Positions 15,304 to 16,215 of a stretch of DNA of 64,000 bases are shown here, piece after piece. The notes under the pieces were generated by a model. The model did no database searches. It worked only from the letters and a program-made list of their open reading frames with translations, and had not been told where the DNA came from. A program made the position numbers and the translations under genes. Source of the DNA: Paenisporosarcina antarctica (GTDB lineage: Bacteria; Bacillota; Bacilli; Bacillales_A; Planococcaceae); assembly GCF_004367585.1 (NCBI RefSeq), contig NZ_CP038015.1:1680001-1744000 (forward strand), given 5' to 3'. Within the stretch, counting starts at the first letter, position 1. The number at the start of each line of letters is the position of its first letter.

Positions 15304-15486
15304 GATAATACCTCCAAGATTCTATATCTTCATATTAAATCTAATAATAAATGGTTACAACTATTCCCTAAAATTTCTATCTGAAATCCCAATAAAATTT
15401 ACATGAATTTCACAATTTTTTTGTTTTCATTTTAAATAAAAATTAGTATAGTAATAAAGAAAAGTAATAAGAAAATAATTTTATAG

Positions 15487-15661
15487 AACGATTTATTGAT
15501 CGTAAATCGTTAGGGAAGGCAAATGGTGCGCCACCAGTTTTATGACTGGTTCTAGTGGGTTCGATTCCCACCCCGGAATTTTTTATGCACTACAAAATGA
15601 AAAATTTCGAGGGGCTAGAGCTAGACTTCTGTCTTTATCTGCCCCGATACGGAGGCGTTAA
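15487..15661 (+). ncRNA. Structured leader with a tRNA-like fold ahead of the GNAT gene
   Basis: The 360 bp between dapF and the acetyltransferase hold several paired elements: AACGATTTA/TAAATCGTT (15487-15511); a near-complete cloverleaf at 15509-15578; and GGGGC/GCCCC enclosing AGAC/GTCT (15611-15645), just before the GGAGG site. The T-arm (15155+400 to 15571, i.e. 15555-15571) is textbook: five pairs, loop TTCGATT, all invariant bases. D-loop GG, a five-base variable region and seven-base acceptor strands are also there. But the anticodon loop has 6 bases, the acceptor has two mismatches and no CCA follows. It is either a decayed tRNA gene or a regulatory leader; I matched it to no known family. 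Confidence 0.45.
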
Positions 15662-15663
15662 TT

Positions 15664-16215
15664 GTGATTAAAAGACGAGAATTGCACGAATGTGGCTCTT
15701 TGTTTGAGTATTTAACTCACCCATCTGTCTTTCCTTTCGTTCGACAAAAAGCAACTTCAACTGATGAATTCTTATTTATGACGAAACAATTAATGGAAGA
15801 AGAAGAATGTGGAAAAGTTATTTCACGCACGATTACTGATGATTATGGGATGCCAATAGGAACAATAAATTTATATGATATTCAAGATCAAGCTGGTTTT
15901 CTAGGAACTTGGATTGGTCATCCTTTCCAAGGAAAAGGATTCAATCTAAAAGCGAAAAATCTATTTTTAGAAGAGCTTTTTTATCAACATAATATCAATA
16001 CAGTTTTTGTGAGGATTAAAAAGCATAATGAAAAGTCTATTCGTGCAACAGAGAAACTAGCATACAGTATGAACGCTAAAGATACTCATCCTACTTTATT
16101 TGAAGAAATTAATGCAGGAGACCATAAATATGAGCTGTATCAAATAACTAAAGACTTATTCTACTTAGCAACAGCTGCATCTAGATTTGTTGAAGAAGAA
16201 GAACATGCAATTTAA
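15664..16215 (+). CDS. GNAT-family N-acetyltransferase (RimJ/RimL type)
   Basis: A 183-aa acetyltransferase of the RimJ/RimL subgroup (Acetyltransf_3-like). The acetyl-CoA loop is seen as WIGHPFQGKGFNLKAK (about 81-96) and the following VRIKKHNEKSIRATEKLAY segment is the standard motif B. The substrate (a protein N-terminus, an amino acid or an aminoacyl group) cannot be told. The start is GTG with GGAGGCG 6 nt upstream, right after a hairpin. It is the only plus-strand gene between telA and the MATE exporter, next to murG. Confidence 0.8.
   Translation: MIKRRELHECGSLFEYLTHPSVFPFVRQKATSTDEFLFMTKQLMEEEECGKVISRTITDDYGMPIGTINLYDIQDQAGFLGTWIGHPFQGKGFNLKAKNLFLEELFYQHNINTVFVRIKKHNEKSIRATEKLAYSMNAKDTHPTLFEEINAGDHKYELYQITKDLFYLATAASRFVEEEEHAI

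Follow-up and report, generated by a model that had tools for sequence, protein, structure and literature searches.

The window analysed here, a stretch of 64,000 nucleotides from Paenisporosarcina antarctica, holds on its plus strand a gene for a GNAT family N-acetyltransferase – presumably ykwB – and, directly 5' of it, a leader with a tRNA-like domain (Table 1). The first-pass annotation had already placed the element there, and the parts that it listed – T-arm, D-stem, anticodon-like arm, CCCC, GGGGC and GCCCC – all lie where it put them. When folded, the window's leader beats all 200 of its dinucleotide shuffles (z -3.84). It may be transcribed from a promoter-like site which, as the consensus scan returned 2 sites against 2.1 expected in shuffles, is not significant alone; own-family relatives have TTTGCA...TATAGT at the matching place (read by eye), and conservation is weak, such a site being found in 64 of 96 relatives versus 42 after shuffling.

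Table 1. Features of the GNAT leader, with positions in the window
Feature	Position	Strand	Remarks
Promoter-like site TTTTCA - 17 nt - TATAGT	15424–15452	+	Consensus scan
5' hairpin AACGATTTA...TAAATCGTT	15487–15511	+	Lineage-specific; found in the window's genus, not generally conserved
tRNA-like domain	15513–15574	+	98.5% of cells paired in 96 distinct relatives, 7 double-change pairs
GGG:CCC stem of the tRNA-like domain	15513–15515 with 15572–15574	+	
D-arm	15518–15532	+	Stem GGC 15518–15520 with GCC 15530–15532; GG in loop
Anticodon-like arm	15534–15549	+	Six-base loop TTTATG
Linker GGTTCTAG	15548–15555	+	Proposed OFF-state partner of tail CTAGAGCT; 26/26 TAG-bearing tails keep the variable-position pair
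Variable region of the tRNA-like domain	15550–15554	+	
T-arm	15555–15571	+	
CCCC strand at cloverleaf 3' end	15571–15574	+	
A+T-rich hairpin CGGAATTTTTT...AAAAATTTC	15574–15608	+	99.5% of cells paired; A-U to U-A exchange in 25/96
Switching strand GAGGGGCTAGAGC	15609–15621	+	Anti-sequestor 5' side, or partner of CCCC 15571–15574; GGGGC = 15611–15615
C-rich strand TCTGCCCC	15638–15645	+	Anti-sequestor 3' side or Shine-Dalgarno sequestor; GCCCC = 15641–15645
Shine-Dalgarno (SD) GGAGGC	15651–15656	+	
GNAT family N-acetyltransferase gene, GTG start	15664–16215	+	Pfam PF13302, E 2.5e-14

The encoded protein is predicted with confidence to be a compact acetyltransferase (AlphaFold2 mean pLDDT 92.9). 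Its fold matches, mostly at 13–16% identity, are headed by the polyamine acetyltransferase SpeG, with FdhC and RimJ close, and its sequence-profile matches among solved structures by MccE (2.5e-7), followed by RimJ/RimL-type enzymes and SpeG. MccE acetylates aminoacyl-nucleotides, and the match may keep open a link to aminoacyl-tRNA; that a GNAT acting on aminoacyl-tRNA is connected with this leader is speculation. Our literature search, which had most subscription journals outside its scope, found no report of the leader, nor is one present in the portions of PMC11109978 and PMC4342826 accessible to us; the name ykwB returned only papers unrelated to a Bacillus gene.

Distribution and association with the acetyltransferase gene

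A first DNA search matched 19 of 61 genomes, of which 18 (the window's own and 17 relatives) carry the element and one (L019) has a different sequence without it. A covariance model, R1, whose E-values are rough, was built from the elements of 17 of these 18 genomes. With it, 48 of 261 genomes of the own family score at least 51.9 bits, and 34 of 398 genomes in an even sample of the class Bacilli score at least 81 bits: 8 from the own family and 26 from twelve others, making 13 families in total. Of 398 genomes sampled evenly from the phylum, 6 match at 1e-7, all within the same class. Weak hits (30–38 bits) were tRNA genes in the three cases inspected, so the model itself is very tRNA-like.

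The element is strictly tied to one gene. The GNAT (E 1e-30 or better) occurs in 101 of the 398 Bacilli genomes; all 34 element genomes carry both, adjacent to each other, the 297 genomes without the GNAT contain no element, and 67 of the 101 with it are element-free. At 190 of 193 loci the GNAT start lies 127–206 nt 3' of the element, the other three stretches ending before the gene; for one of them (L091), a longer sequence shows element and GNAT together. Across loci the protein ranges from 43.7 to 99.5% identity and the gene neighbours vary, falling into 13 upstream and 43 downstream clusters; one annotated record has the order amidohydrolase, unannotated element, GNAT, YflJ, MurG. Searches for mobile copies gave no phage match and, with one exact pattern, none in viral_contigs; the plasmid search gave a single match, an unannotated element before a GNAT on a 690-kb Cytobacillus spongiae record.

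For comparison, an exact-pattern scan of named genomes yielded at least 120 stretches – all used – from many genera of Bacillaceae and Planococcaceae. As the pattern covers the 5' half of the element and later extraction used a similar one, invariance in that half is partly built in; 28 of the 49 invariant positions lie outside the pattern. Removal of 35 duplicate or too-short rows from the 193 loci left 158 sequences, which were thinned to 96.

According to the GNAT tree, the own-family members that lack the element cluster together (92/79) within the element-bearing ones (starred fork, 97/89), which is best read as a single probable loss; resolution is poor at the deeper forks, and the element label needs six changes overall. 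One element-free genus or sub-clade of the own family keeps worn fragments of the element in a leader that looks decayed. Three genomes have strongly diverged elements with the GNAT still directly downstream. These sequences (L246, L247 and L248, genus g10), read by eye, have an altered GGG:CCC stem and a longer acceptor-like one (TTTTAG with CTGAAA); their third arm reads ACTAAC/GTTAGT, and another hairpin precedes the SD. Also by eye, four element-free GNAT orthologues of family f16 (L236, L237, L238 and L239) share a different conserved leader, marked by a GCGGTTC(G/A)AAC motif plus a GCGGTC repeat ahead of the SD.

The tRNA-like fold

The cloverleaf covaries. In the 96 thinned sequences, aligned blind to structure, 98.5% of 2,297 cells of the cloverleaf and A+T-rich hairpin are paired, against at most 64.6% when the partner strands are slid out of register; 7 pairs have changes on both sides versus 3.1 in shuffles, and 0 of 500 shuffles reach the covariation score. 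In the anticodon-like arm, the first pair beyond the fixed CC:GG is kept in all 104 distinct inserts of at least 7 nt (swapped mean 93.6). Compensating changes in relatives, for which the first-pass annotation had proposed to look, are thus present in the covarying stems, in the anticodon-like arm and in the linker–tail pair described below, and its suggestion of a new regulatory RNA is supported. Two of its structural details fared less well: the seven-base acceptor shrinks, across relatives, to the three-pair GGG:CCC stem, and the added 5' stem is essentially local to the window's genus. A stem of at least 7 pairs just 5' of GGG occurs in 18 of 96 thinned sequences versus 64 of 480 shuffled ones, and the 5' hairpin was rejected as a core part of the element.

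Two loop features are those of a tRNA: TTCRA in the T-loop – canonical TTCGATT in the element – and GG in the D-loop are invariant in 96/96 sequences, the former outside and the latter inside the locus-search pattern. By Rfam the likeness to tRNA is modest. The tRNA model (RF00005) gives 26.3 bits (E 0.0022 in a 421-base search) at the domain, short of its gathering score of 29, and no family reaches its gathering score anywhere in the window. With the cut-off relaxed to E 5, nothing but tRNA and two weakly matching families (one sRNA, one miRNA) turns up for the leader. Among 20 element loci searched with E up to 1, the tRNA or tRNA-Sec models hit just 2, and 3 have short tmRNA matches.

The tRNA scan and Rfam check proposed by the first-pass annotation thus found no ordinary tRNA, ARAGORN calling none in the 64-kb window. 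A seven-base anticodon loop with a usable anticodon is absent; across 106 distinct inserts the third-arm loop measures 3–14 nt and shares no common sequence, and such a freely changing insert argues strongly against a decoding role. The acceptor has three conserved pairs in place of seven, and the window has no CCA. A recent origin from a tRNA was rejected, the best match among the 59 tRNAs of the own genome being 41 of 68 identical positions. In 7 of the 158 sequences (L055, L045, L047, L057, L062, L081 and L113), ARAGORN does report the element as a tRNA gene (Lys, Gln, Asn or undetermined), so some genome annotations may contain spurious tRNA genes here. The element is not a functional tRNA, nor is it the relic of one in decay.

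Competing pairings and a proposed translational switch

The strand 3' of the A+T-rich hairpin reads GAGGGG in the window and mostly GAGGGTGG in relatives. Its pairing with the C-rich strand, the anti-sequestor, comes to -13.31 for each sequence's own strands, compared with -8.62 for shuffled strands (z -24) and -11.44 for strands swapped between species (best of 100 swaps, -12.13). The SD sequestor, formed by the C-rich strand and the SD, likewise beats both (own -9.36, shuffled -7.37, swapped between species -8.87, best swap -9.14). The extended hairpin, in which the GAGGGG-type strand pairs with CCCC, does not beat swapping (own -12.21, swapped -12.07, best swap -12.26); 90% of its cells are paired over the alignment, with few double changes (3 cells), and in one sequence (L125) a T-stem pair and its downstream partner have changed together. 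Of what a riboswitch should have – a conserved aptamer-like domain and an expression platform whose pairings exclude one another – the domain and the anti-sequestor are supported, the extended hairpin more weakly.

In the window itself, the 20-base piece with GCCCCG-ATA-CGGAGGC folds at -8.0 kcal/mol, GCCCCG pairing with CGG-A-GGC; L004 has CCA/TGG in place of CCG/CGG. The linker GGTTCTAG finds its partner, within the own family, in tails resembling CTAGARCY, the variable position being C with G in 15, T with A in 9 and T with G in 2 of the 26 TAG-bearing tails; when all 12 nt of the linker are set against the tail, own pairings are not clearly better than swapped ones (own -9.54, swapped -9.33, best swap -9.92). 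Over the 158 sequences, mean SD openness is 0.52 with the tRNA-like pairs forced versus 0.22 with the extended hairpin forced; it is higher by more than 0.2 in the former state in 89 sequences, shows no such difference in 68 and is reversed in 1. Secondary structure alone favours the latter (OFF) state by a median of 8.3 kcal/mol, so the former (ON) needs tertiary contacts, a ligand or other signal, or a favourable folding order.

Taken together, the computed features – conservation, stems, strict gene association and complementarities – make it probable that the leader is a cis-acting translational switch of the GNAT mRNA, with the tRNA-like fold as its ON and a refolded state as its OFF position. 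In the ON state, the 5' domain would form a small cloverleaf from the three-pair GGG:CCC stem, the D-arm, a decoding-incompetent third arm and the T-arm, whose T-loop could dock on the D-loop GG; with CCCC held by the cloverleaf, GAGGGG would pair with the C-rich strand upstream of the gene, leaving the SD free. In the OFF state, CCCC and GAGGGG would instead join over the A+T-rich hairpin, at the cost of the GGG:CCC stem and further parts of the cloverleaf – in the own family, GGUUCUAG would also pair with CUAGARCY – and the freed C-rich strand would pair with the SD, as it could in the window. A factor recognising the tRNA-like fold would then shift the balance. The choice of GGGGC between the acceptor CCCC and the GCCCC near the start, which the first-pass annotation had pointed out, is supported and looks like the switch itself.

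A separate observation concerns positions 15524–15536, where a perfect small hairpin (TGGTG-CGC-CACCA) within the D-arm region is a rival of the cloverleaf and might belong to the OFF state; with so little variation in its columns, it is indistinguishable from the D-arm.

As to the signal, we rank a small molecule first, at a likelihood just short of even; a tRNA-binding protein, perhaps the GNAT itself, comes second as a somewhat weaker candidate, and the ribosome or co-transcriptional folding alone third, as a rather unlikely one. A polyamine is a candidate metabolite because SpeG leads the fold matches, and an aminoacyl-nucleotide because MccE leads the sequence-profile matches. It is possible, though doubtful, that the leader represents a new class of riboswitch in which a true tRNA cloverleaf, its D- and T-loops canonical, acts as the aptamer for a metabolite acetylated by the downstream GNAT; the tRNA fold would then be a metabolite sensor inside an mRNA.

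Other explanations are less probable. The cloverleaf might be a constitutive translation enhancer: folded during transcription, it would interact with the ribosome so that more GNAT is made, and the alternative pairings would be incidental. The tRNA-like domain would indeed be transcribed first, and the accessible part of PMC9142559 reports higher translation in vitro when yjdF aptamers, or authentic tRNAs, stand in front of an SD. An enhancer alone, however, needs neither the anti-sequestor and SD-sequestor complementarities, which beat between-species swaps, nor a linker that covaries with the tail, and we regard it as improbable. Less so, if still unlikely, is a protein operator working by tRNA mimicry, the cloverleaf being bound by the GNAT, or by some other protein with affinity for tRNA, and GNAT translation being controlled in this way – a reading that overlaps with the switch. 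It would suit the strict one-to-one tie to one gene, and MccE, with its aminoacyl-nucleotide activity, is the best sequence-profile match among solved structures; on the other hand, the predicted structure is compact and consists of a single domain, with no RNA-binding domain attached, and many GNAT orthologues have no element.

The hallmark T- and D-loops might also make the domain a processing signal, recognised by RNase P or RNase Z, which would cut the leader. This we consider very unlikely, given a three-pair acceptor without conserved extension, the missing CCA, an unconserved sequence 5' of GGG and later switching strands that would be superfluous. The tRNA relic offered by the first-pass annotation is not supported, and one without function is scarcely credible: the occasional ARAGORN calls and the decayed-looking leader of one own-family sub-clade fit it, but covariation and conservation over 13 families already contradict it, as does the lack of a close tRNA among the 59 of the own genome.

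Relation to known leaders

To our knowledge, tRNA-like folds acting as mRNA switches are rare, and yjdF is the riboswitch example known to us. If the proposed switch is real, it would be a second tRNA-like switch class, independent of yjdF in sequence, whose D- and T-loops are canonical and whose partner gene is always the one uncharacterised acetyltransferase. The element offers a handle on this orphan GNAT, and makes it testable whether a tRNA fold can sense a signal and gate translation.

Among other leaders, the E. coli thrS operator controls translation by tRNA mimicry, binding threonyl-tRNA synthetase and copying the anticodon arm of its tRNA; mimicry in a leader is what the element shares with it, whereas the element's third loop has no conserved sequence. 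With T-box leaders it has in common a place in Bacillota leaders, alternative pairing and a T-loop motif; T-box does not reach its gathering score in the window and is not among the leader's Rfam matches at E up to 5. The tRNA-Other of Bacillus cereus is, in the available portion of PMC3399842, a pseudo-tRNA within a longer RNA, unused in translation, with a Trp anticodon, beside a thioesterase gene and an island, and followed by a terminator at a distance of 523 nt; that portion describes no GNAT for it, and this description sets it apart.

The closest parallel is the yjdF (azaaromatic) riboswitch, RF01764. The accessible parts of PMC9142559 and PMC10987639 describe a 5' leader of tRNA-like shape with a D/T-loop contact and a dispensable third loop, whose OFF state sequesters the SD and which occasionally has acetyltransferases downstream. 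Its structure is debated, the crystal structure showing, in that part of PMC10987639, five stems and a T-loop-like P2b in place of a plain cloverleaf. By analogy with the mechanism reported in the accessible part of PMC9142559, we propose that the element may work like yjdF: both are 5' leaders of tRNA-like shape, with a third loop that is dispensable in yjdF and variable in the element, and the SD-sequestering OFF state reported for yjdF is here proposed for the element. Unlike yjdF as described in these sources, the element has a canonical TTCGATT T-loop and the GNAT downstream in every locus where the gene is visible, and its SD would pair with a separate C-rich strand, as judged from complementarity, and not with the T-arm. 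Membership of yjdF was rejected, RF01764 missing the element in 8 carrier genomes at E up to 10; two of these genomes have true RF01764 copies elsewhere, above the Rfam cut-off (G294:C19:6785-6888 and G454:C15:30921-31024).
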